A stretch of 60,431 nucleotides of DNA, from assembly GCA_017537745.1 (NCBI GenBank), contig JAFYKF010000001.1, positions 1-60,431 on the forward strand. The letters run 5' to 3'. Below, one piece after another: positions 11,224 through 60,431 of this stretch. How positions within the stretch are numbered: the stretch's first letter is position 1; each line of letters opens with the position of its first letter. The notes under the pieces are model-generated. The model was not told the origin of the DNA. It did no database searches and saw only the letters and a list, made by a program, of their open reading frames with translations. Both the position numbers and the translations under genes were made by a program. This DNA comes from Candidatus Saccharimonadota bacterium. GTDB lineage: Bacteria; Patescibacteriota; Saccharimonadia; Saccharimonadales; Saccharimonadaceae.

Positions 11224-11242
11224 GAGGTAATTATAACACCGA

Positions 11243-11271
11243 TTGACTTACTATAGGAAAAATGTTAAAAT
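11243..11271 (+). promoter_or_regulatory. Sigma-70-type promoter of the HD-domain gene
   Basis: TTGACT at 11243-11248 and TAAAAT at 11266-11271 are separated by 17 bases. It drives the HD-domain gene through a leader of about 55 bases that begins with a hairpin. Confidence 0.75.
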
Positions 11272-11274
11272 AGT

Positions 11275-11301
11275 AGGACTGACCATTTGGTAGTCCTTTT
11301 A
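11275..11301 (+). promoter_or_regulatory. Attenuator-like hairpin in the HD gene leader
   Basis: Directly after the predicted transcription start, GGACT-G-ACC pairs with GGT-AGTCC across a four-base loop and is followed by TTTT. It resembles a weak intrinsic terminator placed before the coding region, so it may attenuate transcription or protect the 5' end. Confidence 0.5.
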
Positions 11302-11333
11302 CAGTTAAGAGTTTGGAATGAGGAGGGAGATTG

Positions 11334-12251
11334 TTGTTCAAGTATCAAAGTAACAACGTGTTGGTTCAAACCATCAATAACTGTGTTGATTGTCGCGACA
11401 GTTATGACTGCGACATCTACACAAGGGACATAACGGTGGATTGCCGACACAAAATTCCGGACCGGTGTCCGAAACTTTTGAAGCAACTAGACTACGTCGC
11501 AACGTGCCTCCGGCACCATCCTGAGGTGCAAAAAAGACTCCGCATTGTCGCTGAAGAGCCCTATCTTTACGACCATGGCCTCGCACACGCCGATGTGGTA
11601 ACCACGATCGGAAATCAGTTCCTCGACGCCTATAAGGGCGCGTCTTTTAGGAAGGACTTGTGTTTGGTCCGAATCGCTGCGCTACTCCATGAGCTTGGGA
11701 GGGTCGAGGCAGAAGGACATGACCCCACCTTTGCTTCAGCACAGGTGGCAGAGTGTCTGCTTTCGCAAGTAAGCGGACTCAGCTTGACGGACAAGTTAAC
11801 CATCATCGACGCAATTCTCTATCAAAATGAGTTGCTCCATGTGGTGGCAAGTGAATCTCCGGTAGTGGCCGCGCTTTACTTCGGTGACAAGTTGAGCTTC
11901 GGCCGGGCGTGTATGAAATCCAAGGTTTTGAAAAATATCCTGGAACTTTCGGATTTCGACAAGCAGGCCTACTCAGTCATGCGTGTTTCGTTCAGAGTAC
12001 GTAGGCCTGAAATGACTGGCGTTTTGACGATTACCTATGATCGGCACGAAGCATTCGCGATGGGCTTTGGTGAAGAATTCACCGCAGAGGCATTTACCGA
12101 ATGCCCCGAGCTGATTGTCGGGCCGTATGAAGTGGCGAAAAAGTATCTTGGACTGAAGGATTTTCGTATCCGCGTCCGGTCTGCTTCCCTACTCTATCCT
12201 GGCGAACAAGAGGAATACATTTTCTCGGTGGAGGATTTCAAATTCCTGTAA
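11334..12251 (+). CDS. HD-domain phosphohydrolase-like protein
   Basis: The product (about 305 residues) has an HD-type metal site: HGLAHADVV near residue 86 and ALLHELGR near residue 122 with the expected His and His-Glu in place of the strict HD, and a later D in FGDKLSFGR. HD proteins hydrolyse phosphoesters such as nucleotides. The N-terminus has several cysteines (CVDCRDSYDCD). The start is TTG: AGGAGG at 11321-11326 is seven bases from TTG 11334 and four from TTG 11331, so 11334 is preferred. Codon use is GC-rich as in the other orphan genes. A terminator follows. Confidence 0.75.
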   Translation: MFKYQSNNVLVQTINNCVDCRDSYDCDIYTRDITVDCRHKIPDRCPKLLKQLDYVATCLRHHPEVQKRLRIVAEEPYLYDHGLAHADVVTTIGNQFLDAYKGASFRKDLCLVRIAALLHELGRVEAEGHDPTFASAQVAECLLSQVSGLSLTDKLTIIDAILYQNELLHVVASESPVVAALYFGDKLSFGRACMKSKVLKNILELSDFDKQAYSVMRVSFRVRRPEMTGVLTITYDRHEAFAMGFGEEFTAEAFTECPELIVGPYEVAKKYLGLKDFRIRVRSASLLYPGEQEEYIFSVEDFKFL

Positions 12252-12259
12252 TCTCTTAA

Positions 12260-12291
12260 CTAAAAAGCGCCCCCGCCGGGGTGCTTTTTAG
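12260..12291. terminator. Bidirectional Rho-independent terminator
   Basis: CTAAAAAGC-G-CCCC pairs with GGGG-T-GCTTTTTAG. The flanking A-run and T-run make it usable from both strands, ending the HD gene on the plus strand and the convergent gene at 12351 on the minus strand. Confidence 0.88.
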
Positions 12292-12311
12292 ATGATTGTT
12301 CCAAATATGTG

Positions 12312-12342
12312 AAGGGCCCGCCTTTTACAGCGAGCCCTTTTT
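12312..12342 (+). terminator. Second hairpin with T-run between convergent genes
   Basis: AAGGGC-C-CGC and GCG-A-GCCCTT pair around TTTTACA and are followed by further T residues on the plus strand. It backs up the preceding terminator; on the minus strand it lacks a T-run. Confidence 0.65.
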
Positions 12343-12350
12343 AAAAATGG

Positions 12351-13625
12351 TTACCATTTGTTGTTTTCGGCTTCTTTTCTGGTCAGGCAGAAATGAAAGC
12401 CCGCGGCATGCGTTTCGGTGGAGTAATTAAAGTCGGGGACCGCAATTACGTCACCAATGCGATATTTGGTCTTCTTGTCATATGCGGAGATGCCGATATC
12501 ATCACCATAGAAATCACCAATAATATCGACGATTTTGGCTTTGTCGGAGCGGAATCTTCCTTCGTATTTTTTGCCACGGATTTCGGCATCTTTGGGTATT
12601 TCGGCCACTATAATAACACCGTTCAGACACTGCTTGAAGACTTCGCCCGTAGGTTCAATGGCCCGGTAAGGCGGAAAGCCGGAAGCGTGGGCCGCATAAC
12701 GTGCACCAATAGCAATGGCGCCGGGAGCGGTAAAGCTTTCTTCGATCCATCTGCGCGGCACATCTTCGCGACCGGCTGCGGCATACATGGCGGCCGTACG
12801 TAAGGTGAATTTATCGGAACAATGATATTTCGTGATCGTATTCAGGCTAAGCTTCTTGCCCGAAAGTGCCTTGGCGGCTTCCAGCTGAGTATTCCAGTCA
12901 TAGCTGCCTAAGCCTTTTTTGATAAGCGCGACATTGCCTCTTCTAGCACTAGCGATCCTCATCAGCAGAGGTCCAGCTTTTTTACATGTATCATGACTGT
13001 AGTCATACCATTCATCCAACATGTAATTGCCCCACCCGTAGGGATAGTTTTTAAACGATTTATAAACTGCTTCGGCTCCAACCGGATCGCTCATAATCCT
13101 AAATGGCCATTCGGAATCTGCAGGATGATCAGCCGGCAGCTCTTTGCCAATGGTGGTAAAGATTGCTGCGATTCTTGCTGCGAGACAGTCCAGATTACGC
13201 CATTCCTCAATTTTTTCTTCAGGGATATTCTTCCCCTCACACCACTTAGCGGCGGCAAGCGAGATTTTTGAGTCGCGATGCATCAGTAGCTCATCGATGA
13301 GGTTCAAGGGTAAGTCCTTGGCGTTTTCGATGATTAAGGGTGCATAAATTTTTGAATCAAACATTTCGCAGAATATTCCCGTCTCGAGTTCTTCGATACC
13401 GGCCTGCAGGACATATGCAATATTTTGCCAGATGTAATGGGAATTCTTCCACTTTGCCAAAGTTCTTTGGTTTATTTCATGCTGGGCGGAATCCTCTACT
13501 GCGATTTTGGCAACCTCATCACAAATTGCACCGGGACAATATTGCCCCACGGTTAAGATATCCTTGATCGTTTCTAGCCGTAGGTGGTTTTTAGTCAACA
13601 ATCTGTCCATCTCCTCCATTTTCAT
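12351..13625 (-). CDS. GC-rich orphan gene with a DUF5758-like C-terminus
   Basis: The 424-residue protein consists mostly of helical repeats resembling HEAT or armadillo units (for example LPLNLIDELLMHRDSKISLA and KISLAAAKWCEG), followed by a C-terminal beta-rich part. That end (IVAEIPKDAEI, DKAKIVDI, then AAGFHFCLTRKEAEN) resembles the DUF5758 domain found after pentapeptide repeats in phage and bacterial proteins. Function is unknown. The ATG at 13625 has no good SD; GGAGGAG lies inside codons 3-5, and TTG codons at 13601 or 13598 sit at normal distance from it, so the true start may be there. Confidence 0.72.
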   Translation of the reverse strand: MKMEEMDRLLTKNHLRLETIKDILTVGQYCPGAICDEVAKIAVEDSAQHEINQRTLAKWKNSHYIWQNIAYVLQAGIEELETGIFCEMFDSKIYAPLIIENAKDLPLNLIDELLMHRDSKISLAAAKWCEGKNIPEEKIEEWRNLDCLAARIAAIFTTIGKELPADHPADSEWPFRIMSDPVGAEAVYKSFKNYPYGWGNYMLDEWYDYSHDTCKKAGPLLMRIASARRGNVALIKKGLGSYDWNTQLEAAKALSGKKLSLNTITKYHCSDKFTLRTAAMYAAAGREDVPRRWIEESFTAPGAIAIGARYAAHASGFPPYRAIEPTGEVFKQCLNGVIIVAEIPKDAEIRGKKYEGRFRSDKAKIVDIIGDFYGDDIGISAYDKKTKYRIGDVIAVPDFNYSTETHAAGFHFCLTRKEAENNKW

Positions 13626-14177: not shown

Positions 14178-15044
14178 TTAATTGTTGTTTGATTGAGGAG
14201 TGGTTGAGGGTGGAGTAGCTGGTGGGGTTGGAGTCTGTGGCGTGGTTGGTGGGGTAGTTGGCGGGGTAGGTTTAGTTTTTATCTTGGCGATGGTTTTTAC
14301 AATTAGTACTATTACTGCGGAAATAATGGCGGCGCTGACAACTATTCCTAAAATGATATAAAAAACGCTTGTATTGGAGGACGGCTCCTCGCATCCAAGA
14401 TCATCTGTCACACAGGTTGTTGGCGAGTTTGTCTTTTTTCGAGGATAATCTTTGAAGAGTTCGGTATACTCCTCTGAGTCGTAGCGATATGTATATTCTT
14501 CTTTTTCGTCTTCGCTTATTTTATTGACGACCGTAATATAAGGATATGGATTATCGGCGGTTCCGCCACACTCGGAAGCATCGTTGTCTTCTATTTTTGC
14601 TTCGATTATTTCAATGGCGCGTCCTAGCGTGGCTGTATATTCGTCACTCGTTTCGTCTTGGGAATTGATGATCAGTGCCATCCATTGGTAGTCTGAGGCT
14701 GCGCATGATGGAACTGTTATATGATAATCAATTTTGGCGGATTCGCCAGGGCCTAATGTAGTAACATAATTATCAATCTTGGCCCAGCCAACAATATCAT
14801 TATAATGTTGCCATGAGCTATCGTAATTTGTATTTTCTTTATAGCCACCGCCCTTGACGTCATATGAATAGGGTGTAATTTCGTAGGTGAGATTATCTAG
14901 AGTTTCTTCGCTATTGTTGGTGATTATTGCCGATAGATTGACGACTTGAGCCGGGGATGTTTCAACTGTTTCCTTACGCGGATTAATACCTAATATCGGG
15001 ATAGGTACAATTGTTTCTGATACTGTTTCTTCTTTAAATTGCAT
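14178..15044 (-). CDS. Membrane-anchored surface protein with Pro/Thr-rich tail
   Basis: The 288-residue protein has a beta-rich domain (about 1-170) with VVNLSAIITNNSEETLDNLTY, reminiscent of surface Ig-like domains. A single hydrophobic helix follows near residues 228-252, then KTIAKIKTK, and a low-complexity Pro-Thr tail at the C-terminus. There is no N-terminal signal peptide, so topology is unclear. A four-Cys set in the middle may form disulfides. It lies 14 bases after the Fem-like gene with SD AAGGAAGG, so they form an operon. Family not recognised. Confidence 0.75.
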   Translation of the reverse strand: MQFKEETVSETIVPIPILGINPRKETVETSPAQVVNLSAIITNNSEETLDNLTYEITPYSYDVKGGGYKENTNYDSSWQHYNDIVGWAKIDNYVTTLGPGESAKIDYHITVPSCAASDYQWMALIINSQDETSDEYTATLGRAIEIIEAKIEDNDASECGGTADNPYPYITVVNKISEDEKEEYTYRYDSEEYTELFKDYPRKKTNSPTTCVTDDLGCEEPSSNTSVFYIILGIVVSAAIISAVIVLIVKTIAKIKTKPTPPTTPPTTPQTPTPPATPPSTTPQSNNN

Positions 15045-15058
15045 TGTGTTCCTTCCTT

Positions 15059-15991
15059 TTAATGGATAAGTTTCTTTAGTTTTTTAAGGGCAGTAATTAA
15101 TTTGTACTTTGTTGGGTTCAAAATTATATCGTAGGTGCCGGCGTATTTTTGCTCGCGGCCATTGAAGGTTTTCTTAAAGGCAGTGAAGCCGTACCATGGA
15201 TGGTTTTTATCGGCGCCCTCTGGAGCGATTCCCCAGAAGTCGAATGTTTTATATCCTTTATTCACCGCATCAAGTATTAGTTGGATTGTCAGGATACCGG
15301 TGGCATGAAGCGGTCTTCCCTCTTCGGATTGAGCACCCTGAAGGTTGTAGCGCGTTTTTGTTTCTTCATCATCAAAAACAAGCCCAGCAGCGAGAATATT
15401 GTGGTCTTTTTTCAGAAGATATAGCGTAGCAAAGGATTGTTCTAGCTCAGTTTTTAAGTAATTCTCGGTAAAGGTCGTGATACCCTTTTTAGTGGCAAGA
15501 GCTTTTTGGAGTTTTAAGAGATACTTGATATCTTCAGGGTTGTGGCTAGTTTCGACAGTGATTCCCTGTTTTTCGCGATTTTTATAATACCGATAAAGGC
15601 GTGAGGGGAGGAGGGATTTCAGCGCGGGAGAAACAGCTTGGCCGTTTTCCTGTTGTGGAAGATCAAGAATCCAGGTCTCTGCGGGCTCGATATCTTTGGT
15701 TTTCTTAGAATTTTTAGGAAGAATCTTAGCAAATTCTGGGAGCATTGGCTCAATTCTAATAAATATAGCATTTGATTCTTTAGCGATGCTTTCAAGTTTG
15801 CTTATTGCCTTTTTAAAGCCTTCTTTAGTCTCTGCGACTGGTCCGTACGGTAAAAATAGGTAATTCCCTGCTTTAGTGTGCTTCTCAATTGCTAAAAATT
15901 GGTAATCATCCGTGCTTTCAAAATGCGAAATTTCTCCAAGATTTTCCTGGAGTTTTTGCCATTTTTTGCTCTGCGTGATCGGTATATTCAT
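15059..15991 (-). CDS. FemAB/FemX-like peptidyl (aminoacyl) transferase
   Basis: The protein has the double GNAT fold sequence pattern of Fem proteins: PITQSKKWQKLQ at the N-terminus, LLPSRLYRYYKNREKQGITVE in the middle, and KGYKTFDFWGIAPEGADKNHPWYGFTAFKKTFNG near the C-terminus, the last being highly diagnostic. Fem enzymes add amino acids from aminoacyl-tRNA to lipid II side chains for peptidoglycan cross-bridges. I choose ATG at 15989-15991, giving MNIPITQSK; an in-frame GTG at 16018 would add nine residues. No SD is evident. A long leader and a consensus promoter precede it. Confidence 0.85.
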   Translation of the reverse strand: MNIPITQSKKWQKLQENLGEISHFESTDDYQFLAIEKHTKAGNYLFLPYGPVAETKEGFKKAISKLESIAKESNAIFIRIEPMLPEFAKILPKNSKKTKDIEPAETWILDLPQQENGQAVSPALKSLLPSRLYRYYKNREKQGITVETSHNPEDIKYLLKLQKALATKKGITTFTENYLKTELEQSFATLYLLKKDHNILAAGLVFDDEETKTRYNLQGAQSEEGRPLHATGILTIQLILDAVNKGYKTFDFWGIAPEGADKNHPWYGFTAFKKTFNGREQKYAGTYDIILNPTKYKLITALKKLKKLIH

Positions 15992-16183
15992 ATCTGTATT
16001 TACGCATTTTTCGCACACGAAAATTTTTGACTGCTTATGTTTTTTATTGCATAAACATTAACGCTTTTGGCGTTTCGCTTTTCGAATTTTGCGCTTCACC
16101 TAATTTATCGTTCCGTGTCCCGCAGATACCAAACTTGCAAAATCTGCGGCATCTCCCTTTGCTACCTGTTGGCGGCATTGGTT
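15992..16183 (-). other. Long, potentially structured leader of the Fem-like operon
   Basis: From the predicted start near 16183 to the ATG there are about 190 untranslated bases. They contain a strong hairpin (CCGCAGAT with ATCTGCGG) and a smaller one (AACGC with GCGTT). The conserved-looking GGTAGCAAAGGGAGA segment does not match a riboswitch, T-box or SRP RNA that I know. A short antisense ORF covering the region is not convincing. The stretch could be a cis-regulatory RNA or a separate small RNA. Confidence 0.45.
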
Positions 16184-16189
16184 ACTTTG

Positions 16190-16218
16190 ATTTTAGCGCA
16201 AGCGGATTTTCTTGTCAA
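16190..16218 (-). promoter_or_regulatory. Consensus promoter of the Fem-like operon
   Basis: On the minus strand TTGACA (plus 16213-16218) and TAAAAT (plus 16190-16195) are 17 bases apart, one mismatch from the perfect sigma-70 promoter. Confidence 0.8.
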
Positions 16219-16282
16219 GTGGGTTGCCAGCCGGATGGTGTGCTAGCCATAAGGGAATTGGCCTTATTTTGGTTGTGGTTTT

Positions 16283-16313
16283 TGTGGATAAGTTTGCGGT
16301 TTTATGTGGATAA
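16283..16313 (+). promoter_or_regulatory. Pair of consensus DnaA boxes away from the origin
   Basis: TGTGGATAA occurs at 16283-16291 and 16305-16313, both exact complements of TTATCCACA, the highest-affinity DnaA box, in the same direction and 22 bases apart (about two helix turns). They lie about 65-100 bases upstream of the Fem operon -35 box and 25 kb from dnaA. Confidence 0.6.
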
Positions 16314-16335
16314 ACAGGGAATTATTTTTACTGCT

Positions 16336-16359
16336 TAAAAAAGCCCCGGGATCGGGGCT
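16336..16359 (-). terminator. Rho-independent terminator of the 16366 gene
   Basis: GCCCCG-ATCC-CGGGGC on the minus strand is followed by TTTTTT, a strong terminator just after the stop codon of the membrane protein gene. Confidence 0.9.
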
Positions 16360-16365
16360 GGGGAA

Positions 16366-17226
16366 TTAAGGGGTAGAAGCGGTGGTGCCGGGTGCTGGTT
16401 CGCTTTTTGTTTGCACATTGGCGTTCGTTTCGGCCGCAAAGCCTGCCGCCTTGCTAAAGCGCATGGCATTTAGGATAGCGAGTGCTTCAATTTCTGCTTC
16501 AGTCATGACATTATCGTGAGTTCCGTCAATCTGATTAACTAGACGCACAATTTGCGTATTGAGCTCACTCAAGAGCGCCAACTTGGTACGATTGCTATTC
16601 AACTCCCATGCCAGGGCATTAAGGTCGATCGTTTTTAACGTGGCTTGGCCCTCGTTGGCGCCAGCTAGTAGCATCAGATTATAGATGTCGCTAAAATTTT
16701 GGCGAATTTGGCTCGCCGTGTTGTCAAACACCTTGCGGCTGTCTTTGCCTTTATAGCCAAATTCACTGTCTTCTACGACAGCTTCAAAAATATCGTGGTC
16801 AATTGCTAGCTGGTGCATTTGAGAGATGATCACTTGGATAGTTTCGGCCATATCTGGATTCTGCTTTGCCCATTTTTTAAATTTGCGTTGCATCACAGGG
16901 ATACTGCGGGCGTTGTTGGATTTTTGCCATTCTCGATGGCTGCTCCAGAGGTGGAGCTTGGCAAAAATCTTGCGAAGCAAACTACGGCGTTTGGGTACGG
17001 TAGCTTTTTTGAGCCGTTTGGCTTTTTTGTTTTTTCTGTGTTCTTCAATAGTTTTTTCATAAAAGTCACCGGATATGCCAACCAAGAAAACCACCGAAAG
17101 CGAAATGATGCAACTATACAGGGCTGAATCCAAGCCGGACAAGCCCTGTTTTAAGAAGTAAAAATTGCTGACAAGGTACGATAGGATATACGCAATAATC
17201 TCTATCAAACTTTTCTTGTTTTTCAC
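16366..17226 (-). CDS. Membrane protein of unknown function
   Basis: The 286-residue protein has two N-terminal helices (IIAYILSYLVSNFYFL and SALYSCIISLSVVFLVGI), a strongly basic segment (HRKNKKAKRLKKATVPKRR) that should be cytosolic, and a helical soluble domain ending in a Pro/Thr/Ala tail. The family is not recognised. The start is GTG at 17224-17226 with GGGGAG at eight bases. It is monocistronic with its own terminator. Confidence 0.75.
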   Translation of the reverse strand: MKNKKSLIEIIAYILSYLVSNFYFLKQGLSGLDSALYSCIISLSVVFLVGISGDFYEKTIEEHRKNKKAKRLKKATVPKRRSLLRKIFAKLHLWSSHREWQKSNNARSIPVMQRKFKKWAKQNPDMAETIQVIISQMHQLAIDHDIFEAVVEDSEFGYKGKDSRKVFDNTASQIRQNFSDIYNLMLLAGANEGQATLKTIDLNALAWELNSNRTKLALLSELNTQIVRLVNQIDGTHDNVMTEAEIEALAILNAMRFSKAAGFAAETNANVQTKSEPAPGTTASTP

Positions 17227-17343
17227 TCTTCACACTCCCCTTCAATATTAAAGTACTCCCCCTTAATTCGTATCTTAAATAATATAACATACTGGGGTGA
17301 AAGTCAATAACGAGGGGTTGGATGGAGGTGTTATAATGGGAAT

Positions 17344-17556
17344 ATGGCTTATATACGAAAATTCAAGACCACTTCTGGAGCAACTGGGGTGCAAGTATGC
17401 TATAAGGAGAATGGTCAGGTAGTGAAGACTGTGCATGTTGGCTCGGCTTCGTCGGAGGTAGCTTTGGTGCGACTTTTAAAGAAAGCGCAGGGGATAATCG
17501 ATGCCGAGAAGGGAACACCGATGTTTAACCTGAATAGATTTGACGCTAAAAAATAA
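17344..17556 (+). pseudogene. Stand-alone N-terminal fragment of an IS1634-type transposase
   Basis: The 70 residues (MAYIRKFKTTSGATGVQVCY, then HVGSASSEVALVRLL and KKAQGIID) match the N-terminal domain of IS1634-like DDE transposases, which normally run to more than 500 residues. The DDE catalytic part is absent, the frame ends in a proper stop, and no inverted repeats are visible. TATAAT lies six bases before the ATG with no SD, so it could still be expressed as a small leaderless gene. It may be a remnant or a domesticated DNA-binding fragment. Confidence 0.6.
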
Positions 17557-42789: not shown

Positions 42790-43143
42790 ATGCTTAGTAA
42801 GAAGTACCGATTTCATTCGCGGGGTGGGGTGAGATATGTTTATCAGAAAGGGAAGACAGTTAGGAAGCCTGAGATGTCTTTGGTTTTTTGTGAGAACTCA
42901 CGTGGTTTTACGAGGATGGCTGTGGTGGTGTCAAAAAAAGTAAATAAGACGGCGGTGGGGAGAAACCGGATTCGACGTAGGGTTTATGAAGTACTTCGTA
43001 AAAATTTAGATTCAATTCCTAAGAAAACAGACTATGTTTTTGTAGTTTTCTCACCGGATTTACTTAAAATGCCGGTTTCCAAGTTGGAGAACTTGTTAGG
43101 TGAACTAGTCGCTGAGGCTAAAGTGTGTTATAATAAGAAGTAA
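42790..43143 (+). CDS. rnpA: Ribonuclease P protein component
   Basis: The 117-residue basic protein has the RNR-type signature NKTAVGRNRIRRRVYEVLR and N-terminal KKYRFHSRGGVRYVYQKGK. It assists the RNase P RNA in maturing tRNA 5' ends. TATAAT at 42778-42783 lies six bases before the ATG and there is no SD, so it is leaderless. Its stop overlaps the yidC start by one base. Confidence 0.95.
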   Translation: MLSKKYRFHSRGGVRYVYQKGKTVRKPEMSLVFCENSRGFTRMAVVVSKKVNKTAVGRNRIRRRVYEVLRKNLDSIPKKTDYVFVVFSPDLLKMPVSKLENLLGELVAEAKVCYNKK

Positions 43144-44285
43144 TGAGAAATTTGAGTGTGAGAAAGATTGTTATTTGGACCTTAGTGGGGTTATTTATTT
43201 TGGGTTCAATTTTGGCGGGTGGGCCATTTAATTTTATAGATATTATTATTGTACGTCCGATTGTAAATATTCAGTTTATGATTTTTAATTTGGTGCACGA
43301 TTTTGGTATTGCGATTATTATCTTTGCGGTGCTCGTAAAGCTTTGTATGTGGCCGTTAACCAAGAGGCAATTGAAGCAGACAAGGTTGATGCGTAAGATC
43401 CAGCCGGAGCTAACACAAATTCGGAAAAATTGTAATGGCAACAAACAACTTGAATCGTTGCAAACGATGGATTTGTATAAAAGGTATAATGTTAAGCCAT
43501 TTGCATCGATTGCAACACTATTAATACAGCTTCCAATTTTTATTGCTATCTTTTCGGCGATTAGGGTGATTGCGACGCCATTGCCACAGGATAATCTGAC
43601 AAACCGTGCATATGAAATTGTGGCATACGAAGGCTCTGAGATTCGCGCTTTGGAGGAGAAGCAAGCTACTTATTTAGCTGATTTAACTAATGAAGATATT
43701 CCTGCTGAGGAAAAAGCTGAATATGATTTTCATCCAGAGCTTTTTGGTGTGATTGATTTAACTGCACGAGCCAGTGATGTGATTTCGCCATCTAGGTTCT
43801 CTTGGAGTGCGGTATTTATGCTGGTGATTGCGATTTGTGCGGCTTTGGCGCAATACTTTGCAACCAAAATGCAGATGCCATCCGGTAAGTCTGAGAAGAA
43901 GAAGAGTTTTCGCGAGCTTTTGAAGGCTGCCAAAGAGGGTAAAGAAATAGATGAGTCAGATATTTCTGGTATGTCTACAGCACAGATGGGTAAGATGATG
44001 CCAATTATGATGTTTGTAATCATGATCAATCTTCATGGTGCTTTGGCATTCTATTATTTCTTGTCTAATATATTGACGATTCTACAACAAAAATTGATTT
44101 TGAATAGAGTGAGAGATGATATGGATGATAATACTGATAAGGCGATTTTGAAAGAGTTAAAGAATACCGAAAGTGGTAAAAAAATGAGGGGGAATATTAA
44201 GGAAGCTGAAGTGGTGGAAAACAAAAAATCAGGAACAAAAATAACTAGAATCTCCGCGAAAGATATTAAAAAGAAAAGGAGATAA
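43143..44285 (+). CDS. yidC: Membrane protein insertase YidC
   Basis: The 380-residue protein has an N-terminal helix, the conserved FAVLVKLCMWPLTKRQLKQTRLMRKIQPEL loop region, IATLLIQLPIFIAIFSAIRVIA, and two later helices, with a basic C-terminus. It inserts membrane proteins, alone or with SecYEG. It overlaps rnpA by one base and is followed by khpB after four bases. A second YidC-like domain occurs in a fusion at 58316. Confidence 0.95.
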   Translation: MRNLSVRKIVIWTLVGLFILGSILAGGPFNFIDIIIVRPIVNIQFMIFNLVHDFGIAIIIFAVLVKLCMWPLTKRQLKQTRLMRKIQPELTQIRKNCNGNKQLESLQTMDLYKRYNVKPFASIATLLIQLPIFIAIFSAIRVIATPLPQDNLTNRAYEIVAYEGSEIRALEEKQATYLADLTNEDIPAEEKAEYDFHPELFGVIDLTARASDVISPSRFSWSAVFMLVIAICAALAQYFATKMQMPSGKSEKKKSFRELLKAAKEGKEIDESDISGMSTAQMGKMMPIMMFVIMINLHGALAFYYFLSNILTILQQKLILNRVRDDMDDNTDKAILKELKNTESGKKMRGNIKEAEVVENKKSGTKITRISAKDIKKKRR

Positions 44286-53231: not shown

Positions 53232-54566
53232 ATGCCCAAAAAAGATTATTCAAAACAAGAAATTGATAAATTGATACAAGAGAATGAATTTTTGCGAAAA
53301 GAGAACTACGGTTATAAAAAAATAGTATCTTCTCGTAGGCACCAATATGCTGAAAAAATCGCAACTGCATACAATAGAGTTTTTCCAAAGTGGACAAAAC
53401 GGCGCACTGTGTTTGAAGGGACGTGTAAGGTCTGTATAAAGCCGTTTACAAAGTATAGAGCATGGCGGGGCGATAGATTTAATAGAAAGATTAACAAACT
53501 TGTTAAGAATTATGATAAGGTGATGGTGATTGATAGCATTCCTTGGGATGACAAACTTAGGCAGCGTCCACACCACTTGGCAGCGGAATTTCGTAAGCTG
53601 GGATTTTTTGTAGTTTATTTTGAAGGTTCAAATTCAACATACAAGATGCGCGAAGTTGAAAATGGTATTGTGACAATTAATTCCCATCTCATGCTGGCGG
53701 ATTTGCCAAAAGAGTGTCCGAATTGTTTCTTCTTGTTACCAAATACAATGGCTACGTCACTTGATGTGGTTAATCAAGTGAAAGAGTATGGCTATAAATT
53801 AATCTATGAATATATTGATGAATTCCATGGTGATATTTCTGGCGATCTTGGTGTGCAGCTTTCGATTTGGAATGAGCTTGATAATTTGAAACCAGTGCTT
53901 TTAGTTGCATCTGCTTTGAAATTAAAAGAAGATCTTGAGGAGCATTTGGGCAAGAAATACAAAATTGTCTTAGCGCCAAATGCAGTTTTTACAGAACACT
54001 TTAATTATAAAGAGAATAAAACGGAAATGCCACCAAGCGATATGAAAGATATTGTGAAGAAGGGGCGTCCGATTATTGGTTTTTATGGCGCGTTGGCTCC
54101 ATGGATTGATTTTAATTTAATTAACTCCACTGCTAAGAATCATCCGGAGTGGGAGTTTGTGTTTTTGGGAATTGATTATAATAATGCAGCGAAAGATTTG
54201 GCAAAAGGCAAGAATATTCATAATCTTGGTGCAAAACAATACGAAGAATTACCAAGATATTCGAAGTATTTCAACTGTGCGATAATTCCATTTAAACATG
54301 GTGAAATTGCTAAGGCTACTTCGCCGATTAAACTGTTTGAATACATGGCGGCGGGTTTGCCAACAGTTTGTACGCGTGATTTAAGAGAATGTCGTGGCTA
54401 TGATTATGTATATATGGCAAAGGATGCCAAAGAATTTGAAAAGTACATGGGCGAGGCAATTAAAGAATATAATAATGATGCTGCGAGAAATAGGCTGCTA
54501 GAGCAGGCTGAGAAAAATACTTGGAGCCAACGAGCTGCTGATATTGTAGCTGGTTTAGGATTGTAG
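53232..54566 (+). CDS. Glycosyltransferase, GT-B fold
   Basis: The 444-residue protein has a coiled-coil-like N-terminus, then IDSIPWDDKLRQRPHHLAAEFRKLG, the start of a GT-B fold, PIIGFYGALAPWIDFNLIN, YSKYFNCAIIPFK and SPIKLFEYMAAGLPTVCT, the C-terminal UDP-sugar-binding motif. It starts one base after wecB, so they form an operon and it may use UDP-ManNAc or the next sugar. It converges with tagH, overlapping by 12 bases. Confidence 0.85.
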   Translation: MPKKDYSKQEIDKLIQENEFLRKENYGYKKIVSSRRHQYAEKIATAYNRVFPKWTKRRTVFEGTCKVCIKPFTKYRAWRGDRFNRKINKLVKNYDKVMVIDSIPWDDKLRQRPHHLAAEFRKLGFFVVYFEGSNSTYKMREVENGIVTINSHLMLADLPKECPNCFFLLPNTMATSLDVVNQVKEYGYKLIYEYIDEFHGDISGDLGVQLSIWNELDNLKPVLLVASALKLKEDLEEHLGKKYKIVLAPNAVFTEHFNYKENKTEMPPSDMKDIVKKGRPIIGFYGALAPWIDFNLINSTAKNHPEWEFVFLGIDYNNAAKDLAKGKNIHNLGAKQYEELPRYSKYFNCAIIPFKHGEIAKATSPIKLFEYMAAGLPTVCTRDLRECRGYDYVYMAKDAKEFEKYMGEAIKEYNNDAARNRLLEQAEKNTWSQRAADIVAGLGL

Positions 54567-55760
54567 TTCGTATTCTTCTGGTATTTGCCAGTGAGTAGTA
54601 CTCTGGTATGGATTGGTGGAGATTATTTCGAAGTTTGTAATATTGAAGAAATCTCCGAAATCGATGCTACGATCTAGGGATTTAATGAGTAAGACTACAT
54701 TATATTTGTCGTGTGGGAAATAATTTGCTAGCTTAAGATTTAGTTTATAGGATTGATTAGCTTCGAAAACGATTGGGGTTTTGATTTTTTCATCTGATGC
54801 CCAACGGTAGATTTGTTGACCGTCGTTTTTATTAATGCCGACAGCAATAACAAAATCTTCTAGTTTTTGCTTTGGTTTAATTGTAAATGAAAGTTGAACG
54901 CTCTCACTTGTGACGGTGCTTTTAGCGGATGCTTGAATATAGTTAGTGGTTTTATCTTCACCGACGTTGTCTTGTTTAATATTTCTATTGTTGCTTTCGA
55001 GATATTTTTTAGAGACTTTGAGCGGAGAACCGTCGACGATGATTTTACCATCTTCAATCATGATGGCTCGGTCACAGAAGGTCTGGACGGATTCCATCGA
55101 GTGGGTAACAAGAATAACAGTGCGTTTTTCCTTTTTAAGTTCGGCAAAGTAGCCAAAGCATTTGCGTTGGAATGCAGCGTCGCCAACGGCGAGAACTTCA
55201 TCAAGCAGGAGAATATCACCGCGGGCACGAATAGCAATAGAGAAAGCCAAACGAACTTGCATACCGGAGCTGTAGTTTTTGAGTTTCTGGTCCTGGAATT
55301 CTTTGAGCTCAGCAAAGTCCCAAATATCATCATACATGGCGTCCATTTCTTTGTTAGAAAAGCCGAGCAGGGCGCCATTCATATATACGTTTTCACGACC
55401 AGTGAGCTCTGGGTTGAAGCCGACGCCGAGTTCGATGAAGGGGACTAAGTCGCCATTTACTACGACGTTGCCTTTTTCTGGATAATAAGTACCAGCGAGA
55501 ATTTTGAGGAGAGTTGATTTACCCGAACCATTACGGCCAACGATACCGACGAATTCGCCTTGTTTGATTTCGAAATTGAGACCTTTTAAGACTTTTTGCT
55601 CTTTGTAGCCTTTAATGCCACGAAGGCGGTTGAAGATAGCTTGTTTCAAACCAAAAGATTGTTCAGTAGGCAAACGAAAACTTTTGTGGAGATTTTTTAC
55701 TACGATCGCTGGCTGATTTGGATCGTTGATTTCGGTGCGGGTGCCAAAAGAACGTTTCAT
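54555..55760 (-). CDS. tagH: Teichoic-acid/polysaccharide ABC exporter ATPase
   Basis: The 401-residue protein has Walker A GRNGSGKSTLLKIL, signature NYSSGMQVRLAFSIAI and Walker B LLLDEVLAVGD, with an extra C-terminal domain of about 150 residues (VQLSFTIKPKQKLEDFVIAVG). This is the TagH/Wzt/RfbE type, in which the C-terminal part may recognise the polymer end. It overlaps the permease gene at one base. Exact polymer is unknown; WecB nearby favours a ManNAc-containing linkage. Confidence 0.88.
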   Translation of the reverse strand: MKRSFGTRTEINDPNQPAIVVKNLHKSFRLPTEQSFGLKQAIFNRLRGIKGYKEQKVLKGLNFEIKQGEFVGIVGRNGSGKSTLLKILAGTYYPEKGNVVVNGDLVPFIELGVGFNPELTGRENVYMNGALLGFSNKEMDAMYDDIWDFAELKEFQDQKLKNYSSGMQVRLAFSIAIRARGDILLLDEVLAVGDAAFQRKCFGYFAELKKEKRTVILVTHSMESVQTFCDRAIMIEDGKIIVDGSPLKVSKKYLESNNRNIKQDNVGEDKTTNYIQASAKSTVTSESVQLSFTIKPKQKLEDFVIAVGINKNDGQQIYRWASDEKIKTPIVFEANQSYKLNLKLANYFPHDKYNVVLLIKSLDRSIDFGDFFNITNFEIISTNPYQSTTHWQIPEEYELQS

Positions 55761-56569
55761 TAGATTTCCTCCGCAAAGTATTTAGATTTTTTACGAAATA
55801 CAAGTGCACCGGTAATAAGAACGACGATAACGATGAGTGGCGGAATAATTACAGCGGGATTTGCGACATAATTCCAGGTAGTTAAAGTTTCTGTAGTAAT
55901 AAGATTAAAACGAATGTCTTGAATGGTTTGGGCGATAGGATTTAAGAGAATCACTTTTGCAGCAAGGTCACTAACTCCAGCAATCATCGATACTGGATAA
56001 ATAATAGGAACGGCGTAGAATAATGCCTGGACGATAACGTCCCAAATTGAAGTGATATCACGGAATTTTACGTTGATTGAACCAAGGAGAAAGGCCAAAC
56101 CGAGAGAAAGAAGATATAATTCGATGAGGACAGGGAAAACCAATAACCAGTTCCAGCTTGGCTCGACGCCGTTGATGAGGGCAAAGATAGCGACGACGAC
56201 TAGATTGATGAGCATATTAATGACGGCGGTAAGGGTGGAAGAAACGACGACGATATATTTAGGAAAGTTTATTTTACGCAACAAATCACCACGGCTAACA
56301 ATGGATTGGATACCTTGTGAGGTACATTCTGTAAAGAAGCTCCACATGGTGGTACCGCATAACAAATAGACTGGATAATGAGGTATGTCGCCGCCGAACC
56401 GGAGTAGTTTTGCGAAGACTACGTATAAAATCGCGAACATCATAAGAGGACGAAGTAGCGCCCATAAATAACCTAGAACTGAATTTTGATAGCGTAGCTT
56501 AAAATCAGTTTTAGTAAGTTCAGAGAGTAAAATTCTGTTTTTTCGGTTCAAAACATGGGGAATTTTCAT
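55760..56569 (-). CDS. tagG: Teichoic-acid/polysaccharide ABC exporter permease
   Basis: The 269-residue protein has six membrane helices and the ABC-2 signature (LLSELTKTDFKLRYQNSVLGYLWALLRPL, then YVVFAKLLRFGG and LRKINFPKYIVVVSS). It forms the export pore with the ATPase at 54555. A TATAAT-like box (AATATAG) lies a few bases before the ATG. The genes next to it belong to the same surface-polymer theme. Confidence 0.9.
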   Translation of the reverse strand: MKIPHVLNRKNRILLSELTKTDFKLRYQNSVLGYLWALLRPLMMFAILYVVFAKLLRFGGDIPHYPVYLLCGTTMWSFFTECTSQGIQSIVSRGDLLRKINFPKYIVVVSSTLTAVINMLINLVVVAIFALINGVEPSWNWLLVFPVLIELYLLSLGLAFLLGSINVKFRDITSIWDVIVQALFYAVPIIYPVSMIAGVSDLAAKVILLNPIAQTIQDIRFNLITTETLTTWNYVANPAVIIPPLIVIVVLITGALVFRKKSKYFAEEI

Positions 56570-56684
56570 ACTATATTATTTTAACACATAAAGAGGCTTT
56601 TTAAAACATACACCGCAATAATTGGGGCGGTTTCCATTGACCTCAGAGCTATAAAGTGGTATTATTAAAACATTGGAGCTATAC

Positions 56685-58313
56685 GTGAAAAAGGTAATTA
56701 CTAAACTAAAAGAAAGTTTGGGCGGTATATTAATTGCTTTATTATTAAGCTTGATGTTGGCATTTTATGAGCCTATCAATATGTACGTTGGTAACATGGA
56801 GGAATTCTGGTTTGATTTTCAATCTTTCTTGCCAATAATTTTTCTTCAATTCTTGATTGTATTTTTTGTGATTACAGCTTTTTTCATTATTGTTAACTTG
56901 ATAAATAGAAAAGCTTATAAGATTGTTCTCTTAGTGGCTTTCGTTTGTATGCTAGTAACATATATACAAGGAAATTTCTTGGTTTATAATTTGCCAGGTC
57001 TTGATGGAAACCCAATTAATTGGGATGAATATATGGTTGATAAAGTAATTTCGATTTTGCTATGGGTAGTGATAATTGTAGTTTCGTTTATTCTACTTCG
57101 CAAGTTGAAATTTGAAAAGTTTGAGAAGATTATTAAAGGTTCCTCGATTGTTATTATTATAATGTTACTTGCCGCGACGGTATCATTATTAGTTAAACCG
57201 AATGTGTTTGATAGTAAAGAAGCTCTAATAGCGACTTTTGATAACTTTGATAATGTTAGCAATGATAAAAATTTCTTTATCTTTTTAGTAGATCAGGTTG
57301 ATTCGGTGGCGTTTAACGAGGAACTATCTAAAAACTGGGATAAAAGGGAAATTTTTGAAGACTTTACTTATTACCCAGATACTTCAAGTACATATATGTG
57401 GACGCTATACTCTGTGCCTTATATTCTAAGTGGTGATTATTATGAAAATGAAGAGGATAAATTTAGTGATTATTTCACAAATGCGTTTGATAATTCGCCA
57501 CTATTTGAATCACTCGAGAAGGAAGGATATGATTTAAGTATTTATGAAGATGAGGAAATTTTGAATTATAAAGGTAATAATTTGACTCGGTTTAATAATA
57601 TAAAATCTGGAGTTCTGATTCGTAAAAAAGAGTTAGTGAAGCAGGAAGTGAAATATGTACTATTCAAGTACTTACCATATCCTTTGAAGTGGATGGCAAA
57701 AATTAATAATCTCGATATTAATAGTACAAAAGCAAGCAATGATGCAAATATTTATGCATCCTATAATGATGTGGTATACAGCCATATGAAGAATAATGAC
57801 TTGAATAAAGTTGGTAACAAATGTTTTTCGTTTATTCATGTCGTAGGTGCACATCCACCATTTATCTATGATAAAGATGTGAATCGCCAGCCAGAAGGGA
57901 CTTATGTGGATGGCGTGAACGCTGGTATTGCAATGGTAAAGGAATATTTGGAGAGGTTGCGAGAGGGTGGAGTATATGATAACTCTGTGATTATTATTAT
58001 GTCTGATCATGGGCATGGTGAAGAAACGATCCAAAGAAGTAATCCAATACTATATATTAAAGGTATTAACGAGAAACATGATTATGTGAAGTCTGATAAA
58101 AAAGTTTCGTTTGAATATTTAAGCGATGCTTACGCGCAACTACTCAAGGGGGATAAATCAGAACAATTATTTACTAACGTTGATGGCTCAAAGAGGAGAG
58201 TACTTTATAGTGAGCTTTATAATCCAAATCTGACGGAATATATGCAAACTGGTCATGCGTGGGATACGAAGACTTTAGTTAAAACTGGCAATCAATATTT
58301 GAGGGAAAAGTAA
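56685..58313 (+). CDS. Sulfatase-fold membrane transferase (LtaS/OpgB-like)
   Basis: The protein (542 residues) has five N-terminal membrane helices and an extracytoplasmic alkaline-phosphatase-superfamily domain: FFIFLVDQVDSVAFNE (first metal Asp), a Thr-rich YYPDTSSTYMWTLYSVPYILSG (nucleophile region), FSFIHVVGAHPPFIYD, and IIIMSDHGHGEE (second metal site). Relatives transfer glycerol phosphate (LtaS) or phosphoethanolamine. GTG 56685 has GGAG six bases upstream; TTG 56673 fits a leaderless start after TATTAT at 56659-56664. The YidC-TagF fusion follows after two bases. Confidence 0.82.
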   Translation: MKKVITKLKESLGGILIALLLSLMLAFYEPINMYVGNMEEFWFDFQSFLPIIFLQFLIVFFVITAFFIIVNLINRKAYKIVLLVAFVCMLVTYIQGNFLVYNLPGLDGNPINWDEYMVDKVISILLWVVIIVVSFILLRKLKFEKFEKIIKGSSIVIIIMLLAATVSLLVKPNVFDSKEALIATFDNFDNVSNDKNFFIFLVDQVDSVAFNEELSKNWDKREIFEDFTYYPDTSSTYMWTLYSVPYILSGDYYENEEDKFSDYFTNAFDNSPLFESLEKEGYDLSIYEDEEILNYKGNNLTRFNNIKSGVLIRKKELVKQEVKYVLFKYLPYPLKWMAKINNLDINSTKASNDANIYASYNDVVYSHMKNNDLNKVGNKCFSFIHVVGAHPPFIYDKDVNRQPEGTYVDGVNAGIAMVKEYLERLREGGVYDNSVIIIMSDHGHGEETIQRSNPILYIKGINEKHDYVKSDKKVSFEYLSDAYAQLLKGDKSEQLFTNVDGSKRRVLYSELYNPNLTEYMQTGHAWDTKTLVKTGNQYLREK

Positions 58314-58315
58314 AA

Positions 58316-60214
58316 ATGTTTTTTGTAGATTTCATGGGTTGGATAATGAAAATTTGTTACGACATCGTAGGGAATTACGGTGCAGCAATTATTTTGTTTA
58401 CATTGGTGTCTAAAATAATTTTGTTACCGATTTCAATCTGGGTTCAGAAGAACTCGATTAAAATGGTGAAAATGCAGCCGGAAATTAACCGAACTAAGAC
58501 TAAATATTTTGGCGATAAAGATACGATTGCTGAGGAAGAATCTAAGATTTACAAGAAATATAAATATAATCCACTTGCTTCTTTGGTACCATTAGTAATT
58601 CAAATTGTACTTTTGCTTGGTGTGGTGGAGATTGTAAAAAACCCAGAGCATTACATTGGGGTTGAGAATTTAATTTTTGATTTTCTAGGATTTGACCTTC
58701 GCTGGATTGCAGCCGAGAATGGTGGTACGGCGATTTGGATTCCAGTGATTGCAGGCCTATCTGCATTGGTCCTTTGTGTCGGTCAAAATATCATGAACGT
58801 ACTTCAGGCCGAACAATCAAAATGGAATAAATGGGGTATGTTGGTCCTGTCAGTAGGACTATCACTTTATTTGGGTACATTTGTAACGGCTGGTGTAGCA
58901 CTTTATTGGACTGCTAGCAATTTAATGGCAATTTTGCAGCAGTGGTTACTTAATCTTGCAATTAACCCAAAGAAATACGTTGACTATAAGGCGCTCGAAG
59001 CATCACGTGCAGAATTAAAGGAGTTACAGAATATTTCTAAATCTCATAAACGTACAGCTGAACAAATTAAAGAAGAAAAAGCTGACTATAAAAGGTTTTT
59101 CAGTATCGCAAACAAACACCTAGTATTCTATTCTGAAAGTAGCGGTTTTTACAAGTATTATAAAGGTATCATTGAATATATTCTAGAAAACACCAATATC
59201 ACGATTCATTATATAACAAGTGATTACGATGATCAGATTTTTGAGATTGCAAAAACCGAAAAACACATAAAGCCTTATTATATTGAGGAAAAGAAATTAA
59301 TAACTCTTATGATGAAAATGGATGCTGATGTGGTAGTGATGACGATGCCAGATATTGATAACTACCACATTAAGCGTAGCTACGTGAATAAAGATACAGT
59401 ATATGTGTTTATTCCACATTGTATTGATAGTCAAAATATGACGATGCGCAAGGGCTCAATGGACAACTATGATGTGGTATTTTGTTGTGGAGAGCATCAG
59501 CGTGCCGAAGTTGAAGCTAATAATAAGCGCGTAAAGACTAAAAATAAAGAGATTGTAAGTTGGGGCTACTCATTACTTGATGATATGATCGCCGATTACA
59601 AGAAAACTAAAAAATCAAAATCTAAAACAAAAACTATAATGATTGCGCCAAGCTGGCAAAAAGACAACATCATAGATTTATGTTTGGATAAAATACTCAA
59701 AACCCTCGAAGGCAAAAATTATAATGTGATCGTACGTCCGCACCCACAACAAGTTCGCCATATGAAAGATGCATTTGAAAAAATGAAAGAAAAATATGCT
59801 GGAACAAATATCGAAATTCAAACTGATTTTTCTAAGACTAGTTCTGTATTTGAAGCAGATATTCTTATTGGCGATTGGTCTAGCATTGGTTTTGAATACG
59901 CCTTTACGACTGAAAAGCCAGTTATCTCGATTGACACACCGATGAAAATTATGAATCCGGAATATAAGAAGATAGACGTTCCGCCGATTAATATTTGGGG
60001 ACGCGAAGAAATCGGTGAAGTTGTAAAACTTAAAGATATCAAAAATCTTGATAAAATTATCGAGAAATTGTTGAAAAATCCAGTAAAGTATCGTAATAAA
60101 ATTGTTGCACTTCGTAAAAAATCGATTTATAATTTAGGTAATAGCGCTGAGGTTGGTGCACTTGAAATTATTGCGCTTGTTCAAGAAAAAGTAAAAGAAA
60201 GGAAGAAAAAATGA
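58316..60214 (+). CDS. YidC-like insertase domain fused to TagF-like glycerophosphotransferase
   Basis: Residues 1-225 form a YidC/Oxa1 domain: five helices, KIILLPISIWVQKNSIKMVKMQPEI (as in the true YidC here), YNPLASLVPLVIQIVLLLGVV, and ALYWTASNLMAILQQWLLN. A helical linker follows, then about 255-632 a CDP-glycerol glycerophosphotransferase-like domain with FIPHCIDSQNMTMRKGSMD, VIVRPHPQQ and ADILIGDWSSIGFEYAFTTEKPVIS. The TagF part should polymerise a glycerol phosphate chain at the inner membrane face; the YidC part may anchor or insert. There is no stop or frame break between the halves. Confidence 0.9.
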   Translation: MFFVDFMGWIMKICYDIVGNYGAAIILFTLVSKIILLPISIWVQKNSIKMVKMQPEINRTKTKYFGDKDTIAEEESKIYKKYKYNPLASLVPLVIQIVLLLGVVEIVKNPEHYIGVENLIFDFLGFDLRWIAAENGGTAIWIPVIAGLSALVLCVGQNIMNVLQAEQSKWNKWGMLVLSVGLSLYLGTFVTAGVALYWTASNLMAILQQWLLNLAINPKKYVDYKALEASRAELKELQNISKSHKRTAEQIKEEKADYKRFFSIANKHLVFYSESSGFYKYYKGIIEYILENTNITIHYITSDYDDQIFEIAKTEKHIKPYYIEEKKLITLMMKMDADVVVMTMPDIDNYHIKRSYVNKDTVYVFIPHCIDSQNMTMRKGSMDNYDVVFCCGEHQRAEVEANNKRVKTKNKEIVSWGYSLLDDMIADYKKTKKSKSKTKTIMIAPSWQKDNIIDLCLDKILKTLEGKNYNVIVRPHPQQVRHMKDAFEKMKEKYAGTNIEIQTDFSKTSSVFEADILIGDWSSIGFEYAFTTEKPVISIDTPMKIMNPEYKKIDVPPINIWGREEIGEVVKLKDIKNLDKIIEKLLKNPVKYRNKIVALRKKSIYNLGNSAEVGALEIIALVQEKVKERKKK

Positions 60215-60431
60215 GTCTATTAAATATATTTGGCTATGTAGATCCGTCAGTAATGACCTATGCAATTCAGGCAGGAGCAGGTATTCTGATTGCGGTTGGC
60301 GCTTTCATTGGTTTATATTTTAGAAAAGCCAAGAAAAAGGTTAATCAAAAGCTTGGTGTTGATGAAAATAAGAATAAAGAAGTTGAGTCTGACGATATTG
60401 TAGTCAAGAAGACTGAGAACAAAACAACAAA
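60211..60431 (+). CDS. Small membrane protein, partial (runs off the window)
   Basis: The visible 73 residues begin MSLLNIFGYVDPSVMTYAIQ, followed by one helix (AGAGILIAVGAFIGLYF) and a basic then acidic tail (RKAKKKVNQKLG). Short proteins of this type occur next to sulfatase and TagF-like genes in other bacteria, but function is unknown. The ATG overlaps the stop of the fusion gene by four bases, with AAAGGAAG before it. Confidence 0.8.
   Translation, partial: MSLLNIFGYVDPSVMTYAIQAGAGILIAVGAFIGLYFRKAKKKVNQKLGVDENKNKEVESDDIVVKKTENKTT

Follow-up and report, generated by a model that had tools for sequence, protein, structure and literature searches.

A YidC-like domain fused to a TagF-like transferase in gut and rumen bacteria, with a candidate role in headgroup transfer to surface glycans

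Analysis of a 60,431-nucleotide stretch of DNA from a Candidatus Saccharimonadota bacterium, here called the window, revealed a gene in which a YidC/Oxa1-like domain is joined to a TagF-like enzyme, and the product is a genuine protein that is widely conserved. It combines familiar kinds of domain in a new and apparently undescribed arrangement, and no published description of a YidC-TagF protein, a YidC-teichoic-sulfatase protein or a similar system was found in the open-access literature; automatic annotation would likely label YidC-TagF proteins plain YidC insertases. The fusion may constitute the inner half of a four-module machine by which small aminoalkyl phosphate or phosphonate groups are attached to surface glycans, a reading whose chances we consider evenly balanced. 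Its general role, headgroup transfer jointly with a sulfatase-fold enzyme, appears moderately probable, and a function of the YidC half as a membrane conduit is proposed tentatively.

The fusion gene (58316..60214, +) was defined from its open reading frame, Pfam and NCBIfam matches, homologous loci and an AlphaFold2 model (pLDDT 88, pTM 0.72). It encodes 632 aa from an ATG start with zero internal stops, and the matches to 60KD_IMP and Glyphos_transf both exceed the Pfam curated cut-offs, in agreement with the initial annotation, which had placed the two domains in one frame. Scanning 84,980 species genomes yielded 164 relatives, the best 80 of which were analysed, and the same domain order recurs in at least 80 independent loci. 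A chance ORF or a chimeric assembly join, the latter a reservation raised in the initial annotation, is excluded by these loci; an artefact joining yidC and tagF, with which the contig end directly past the operon would be consistent, is in view of them exceedingly improbable.

The window is the whole of one contig (C3) of a source genome of 838 kb, 11 contigs and 98% completeness. On the same strand as the fusion lies the gene for a sulfatase-fold (alkaline phosphatase superfamily) membrane enzyme with an LtaS/YejM-like domain (56673..58313, +; profile, alignment and structure), the more likely start of which is GTG 56685 with GGAG upstream. The fusion starts 2 bp past the end of this gene (58313), and its stop codon is overlapped by 4 bp (ATGA) by the gene of a small single-TM protein with the motif YVDPSVMTYAIQ ("YIDPS..TY" type; 60211..60431, +; ORF and homologues), inside which the contig ends (60431). 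The 2-bp gap and the ATGA overlap support the operon of these three genes that had been suggested at the outset. The divergent neighbours, recognised by profile matches, are an ABC-2 polysaccharide exporter permease (Wzm-like; 55760..56569, -) and an ABC ATPase (Wzt-like, the Wzt_C match being weak; 54555..55760, -), and most Saccharibacteria copies of the module likewise have Wzm/Wzt-type exporter genes close by. The additional, ordinary yidC reported earlier was also found (43143..44285, +; profile match and tree); it is a separate gene, the only other 60KD_IMP gene in the genome, and clusters in the tree with Saccharibacteria YidCs, apart from the fusion. There is one other TagF in the window genome (G000), on contig C6 (L118:2731-5921); this second TagF is of the ordinary type and adjoins a TagD-like gene.

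In the sulfatase-fold enzyme, five TM helices are predicted, followed by the LtaS/YejM-like domain, which is nearest to LtaS by sequence and to YejM and sulfatases by fold (Z about 21). Asp207, Thr244, His389, His394, Asp445 and His446 are invariant in this enzyme, Asp207, Thr244, Asp445 and His446 across 50 sequences; by motif, Thr244 is expected to be the nucleophile, and Asp207, Asp445 and His446 metal ligands. Enzymes of the LtaS and EptA type take a phospho-headgroup off a lipid and pass it to an acceptor on the outer side of the membrane; by family topology, the sulfatase-fold half would likewise face the outside. A larger PF00884 protein (about 600-680 aa) occurs in many same-genus genomes and is absent from the window genome.

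The YidC/Oxa1 (60KD_IMP) domain spans residues 21-213 (58376..58954, +; Pfam and structure match). Its 60KD_IMP match reaches 110.9 bits against a cut-off of 35 (E 8e-32) and its TIGR03592 match 106.7 bits against 84.3, which upholds the original assignment of the N-terminal part to the YidC family. The AlphaFold2 model has the five-TM fold with a cytosolic hairpin by which this family is recognised, and matches Bacillus halodurans YidC 3wo7 with Z 18.6 (199 aligned, rmsd 2.7, 25% identity). Lys33 (58412..58414, +; alignments) aligns with the arginine in the groove of YidC (R366 in E. coli); this residue is K in 73 of the 74 fusions and R in the remaining one, hence positively charged in all 74. 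Residues Q96, N161, Q164, Q167, S183, Y197, W198 and N202 are invariant or nearly so across the 74 fusions, and N161, Q164, Q167 and S183 are atypical for the ordinary YidCs compared. In a tree, the YidC domains of the fusions group as one clade (99), next to Bacillota YidCs and away from those of Saccharibacteria. A separate ordinary YidC is present in 22 of 24 fusion-bearing genomes, with none seen in G074 and G083, for which completeness is not given; replacement of the ordinary YidC by the fusion is ruled out by those 22. The C-terminus of YidC proteins is cytosolic, and the TagF half would thus lie in the cytosol, where CDP donors are.

The TagF-like (Glyphos_transf, PF04464) domain, residues 264-538 (59105..59929, +; Pfam, structure and profile match), scores 41.6 bits against a cut-off of 22.1 (E 1e-10). 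Staphylococcus epidermidis TagF is the best structural match of this half of the AlphaFold2 model (3l7m; Z 21.8, 350 aligned, rmsd 5.2), which identifies a GT-B fold, and profile-profile comparison with ordinary TagFs gave a probability of 98 at 21% identity; phmmer with the TagF half alone against the PDB gave no useful match, whereas the profile and structure comparisons did. In the alignment, His368 (59417..59419, +) corresponds to TagF His444, mutated in 3l7j, His476 of the RPHP motif (59741..59743, +) to the second mutated TagF histidine (3l7m), and Asp520-Trp521-Ser522 (59873..59881, +) to the TagF 'ITDYS' motif; these positions are invariant, with His368, His476 and Asp520/Ser522 unchanged across the 74 fusions. 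Both halves of the fusion look functional, their key residues being kept.

The fusion is found in rumen and gut Saccharibacteria and in many gut Bacillota, including Roseburia inulinivorans; most of the genomes compared are metagenome-assembled, and the gene calls in relatives are mechanical. Among the best 80 of the 164 relatives there are 13 full-length Saccharibacteria copies at 68-84% identity (L035-L047) and a fourteenth that is a fragment (L091), the remainder being mostly from gut Bacillota at 44-63% identity (Lachnospiraceae, Erysipelotrichaceae/Solobacterium and Oscillospiraceae). One locus, L111, carries a Chloroflexota label, probably through a naming or binning error. A tree of 74 fusions places all the Saccharibacteria copies in a single clade (support 100) within sets that also hold Bacillota. 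Since they are nested inside Bacillota, the gene would have been acquired, most simply by horizontal transfer from Bacillota; against vertical inheritance stand this nesting and the presence of the fusion in 1 of 35 same-genus relatives searched (G010). No plasmid record covers most of the fusion. Three short, unannotated faecal records named 'Bacteriophage sp.' (MT838376, MT836777 and MT836947) contain it at 46-53% identity and may be mislabelled bacterial contigs.

The YidC-like, TagF-like and sulfatase-fold modules and the small YIDPS protein are joined in several ARRANGEMENTS, and their gene neighbourhoods and fusions indicate that the four belong together. Among the best 80 of the 164 relatives, the small gene is at position +1 of the fusion in 54 of 78 loci and the sulfatase-fold gene at position -1 in 34 of 73, with two or three sulfatase-fold genes per fusion in some loci. 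Within 1.45 kb of the fusion, the sulfatase-fold gene is present at 41 and the small gene at 55 of 63 loci; in the same genomes neither gene was found within that distance at 16 ordinary tagF and 17 ordinary yidC loci. YidC, TagF and sulfatase-fold domains form single proteins at L103 (1241 aa) and L113 (1359 aa), and the small protein is fused to the sulfatase-fold enzyme at more than 10 loci. Signal peptidase I genes were often observed near the module (L111:9997-10506 and 18 other loci).

A further type, YidC-sulfatase fusions of about 900-935 aa with extra TM helices, was observed at L153-L157, with five copies in G074. The genes are L153:4089-6803, 10263-13052 and 14830-17517, L154:4823-7630, L155:5920-8685 and, on the minus strand, L156:2685-5393 and L157:3105-5825. 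The further membrane helices sit between the YidC and sulfatase domains; because these proteins keep membrane helices of their own, the YidC domain would be more than a substitute anchor. Their YidC domains form a separate clade (100), so that YidC either came to this set of partners on two or more occasions or diverged at a very early stage. TagF-like proteins (L154:2327-3610 and L155:8698-9948) adjoin YidC-sulfatase genes and carry an N-terminal 'YIDPGTGSM' segment that resembles the small protein of the window operon, significantly so for L155 (E 1.5e-4).

The genes around the fusion appear to serve the synthesis or uptake of choline, ethanolamine-like groups or 2-aminoethylphosphonate (AEP) in CDP/CMP-activated form, and the headgroup putatively assigned to each enzyme is the one that its neighbours suggest. 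In R. inulinivorans, the fusion and the small gene are followed by a 2-AEP transaminase (TIGR03301, E 2e-140), a fusion of PEP mutase and cytidylyltransferase (TIGR02320, E 3e-125) and a phosphonopyruvate decarboxylase (TIGR03297, E 1e-139), which would amount to a complete CMP-AEP route provided that AEP is the substrate of the cytidylyltransferase. At L066, a 2-AEP importer, PhnS2/PhnU2 (matches under the NCBIfam cut-offs, these being the sole families found at the limit used), is encoded together with a nucleotidyltransferase; the LicC-like nucleotidyltransferase at L066:5061-5972, and similar ones, have an N-terminal winged-helix DNA-binding domain. L107 encodes a choline kinase fused to a nucleotidyltransferase, and a BCCT transporter. 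The commonest neighbour is a fusion, about 605 aa in length, of a nucleotidyltransferase and a CobD/HisC-like PLP enzyme (L114:3580-5394, L116:10162-11994 and about 25 other loci), of which the CobD-like part matches TIGR01140 with E about 1e-50, under its cut-off. This protein may make CDP-ethanolamine or a similar amine and is perhaps a one-protein path from serine phosphate to CDP-ethanolamine. A fusion of a TagD-like cytidylyltransferase with a GFO/IDH/MocA oxidoreductase, located beside an aminotransferase (as at L051:9628-10941 and L041:9206-10534), is present in several Saccharibacteria copies and might yield CDP-serinol or CDP-glycerol.

Donor-type genes were recognised in 50 of 79 fusion loci among the best 80 of the 164 relatives, and none within 6 genes in the other 29, some of which are on short contigs. 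They fill 66 of 413 positions at most 3 genes from the fusion and 11 of 192 positions at 5 or more genes. Within 1.45 kb, a donor gene is found at 34 of 63 fusion loci versus 0 of 17 ordinary yidC loci; ordinary tagF loci have one in 6 of 16 cases, mostly of TagD type, and the enrichment over these is modest. In the window genome, searches gave weak matches to donor genes, namely a 170-aa TagD-like gene on contig C6 with 42% identity to the cytidylyltransferase part and one further weak nucleotidyltransferase match; a donor gene of the window operon would be out of sight, the contig stopping at the point where donors are found in many sister loci. LicD was found in 9 of 14 genomes and not in the other 5, for which completeness is not given, and CDP-alcohol phosphatidyltransferases (PF01066) are uninformative, being present in every one of the 14.

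The initial annotation had named the enzyme half a teichoic-acid polymerase. This label is probably wrong, because choline-, ethanolamine- and AEP-type groups cannot be polymerised: the neighbours point to donors of the CDP-choline, CDP-ethanolamine-like and CMP-AEP kinds, in which the headgroup lacks a free hydroxyl for chain growth, and the fusion is the sole TagF-family protein in 9 of 24 genomes. That the fusion is nevertheless a genuine polymerase of the poly(glycerol phosphate) type, equipped with a membrane domain and giving a teichoic-acid-like product, is improbable: TagF is its closest solved structure, TagF His444, the second histidine and the DxS motif are conserved, and some loci have the TagD-like cytidylyltransferase fusion, but most of the classified donors (choline, AEP and the CobD-like product) are unable to extend a chain and the fusion resembles TagF weakly in sequence (21% by profile alignment). 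Choline phosphate and AEP lack a hydroxyl for extension, so the TagF half would perform one transfer per acceptor in those genomes.

In the relay that we propose, the TagF half would load phosphocholine, phosphoethanolamine or 2-aminoethylphosphonate from a CDP or CMP donor onto a lipid of the cytosolic leaflet; passage of the lipid-linked group through the membrane would take place in the YidC-like groove, aided by the small protein; and outside, the EptA- or LtaS-like sulfatase-fold enzyme would hand the group to a surface glycan. The coupling of a cytosolic CDP/CMP enzyme with an outer transferase that uses lipids suggests a lipid-linked intermediate, which would have to get across the membrane. 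Lipid scrambling has been observed for Oxa1-family insertases in reconstituted liposomes, E. coli YidC among them (PMC10491306), which makes the YidC half a credible conduit. The lipid acceptor, the scrambling and the final glycan are the inferred parts of this scheme. Against it weigh the 29 loci with no recognised donor gene and the modest donor enrichment over ordinary tagF loci; LicD, present in 9 of the 14 genomes, could perform the headgroup transfer, and the product of the TagD-like-GFO/IDH fusion at some loci could be CDP-glycerol-like and polymerisable. The idea in the initial annotation that the insertase fold handles something lipid-linked is plausible, and a role as a mere anchor is disfavoured by the invariant polar residues and by the YidC-sulfatase lineage.

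The most serious competitor, itself unlikely, has the TagF half load the headgroup directly onto a lipid-linked glycan in the cytosol, in the manner of LicD, with export of the glycan by the ABC exporter or a flippase, the YidC half as a membrane holder, and the sulfatase-fold enzyme adding a different, phospholipid-derived group. TagF-family enzymes are established as acting in the cytosol on lipid-linked acceptors, the Wzm/Wzt-type exporter adjoins the module, and YidC supplies five membrane helices, all of which suit this reading; however, the varied fusions among TagF, YidC and sulfatase-fold modules argue for one chain of steps, and a passive anchor agrees poorly with invariant intramembrane polar residues and with a second recruitment of YidC to a protein that has helices of its own. 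It is very doubtful that the YidC half is instead a dedicated working insertase for the small protein or the sulfatase-fold enzyme, coupling assembly to synthesis. General YidC core features are retained, and the small single-TM protein, whose gene overlaps the end of the fusion, is of a size typical for YidC substrates, yet most of the genomes (22 of 24) have an ordinary YidC as well, the fusion YidCs form their own clade (99) with residues that set them apart from ordinary YidC, and the conserved TagF fusion and the YidC-sulfatase fusions would be left unexplained.

The proposed relay would, if it exists, be a new class, with an insertase fold as a dedicated lipid scramblase linking a cytosolic TagF-type to an outer sulfatase-fold transferase; this is a possibility that we put forward with reserve. 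If true, lipid scrambling by insertases (PMC10491306) gains a testable case with a guessable natural cargo, the YidC fold being permanently attached to the enzyme that would make the cargo lipid. The transferase step of bacterial phosphonate tailoring was called enigmatic by Rice et al. 2019 (PMC6697681), and the fusion is a candidate for the missing transferase in gut and rumen bacteria, including the cultured R. inulinivorans.

Compared with known systems, the fusion resembles TagF/TarL (glycerol- and ribitol-phosphate transferases) in its GT-B fold, both mutagenised histidines, RxHP and DxS, and cytosolic use of a CDP donor would be expected for it too; unlike these enzymes it has a YidC domain, about 21% identity, and neighbours for aminoalkyl donors rather than CDP-glycerol alone. 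It matches the YidC/Oxa1 insertases (PF02096) in the five-TM fold, the groove Lys/Arg and conserved core positions, but differs in its own clade and invariant membrane polar residues, the attached enzyme and the ordinary YidC alongside. The partner enzyme is like LtaS, EptA and YejM in having five TM helices before a sulfatase-fold domain with the Thr and metal-ligand positions, but its sequence similarity to them is weak and it occurs together with YidC-TagF and the small protein. As in LicA/B/C/D phosphocholine and PntC phosphonate tailoring (PMC6697681), neighbouring genes would activate choline phosphate or AEP as the cytidylyl form. In contrast to both, YidC-TagF and the sulfatase-fold enzyme are here found instead of, or beside, LicD. 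GtrA/GtrB/GtrC form a three-part glucosylation relay, the proteins of which are unrelated to those described here and which transfers glucose, not a phosphate or phosphonate headgroup; however, the division of labour would be similar, with an inner maker of the donor lipid, a small membrane protein and an outer acceptor-specific transferase, and some fusion loci similarly have several outer enzymes per inner one.
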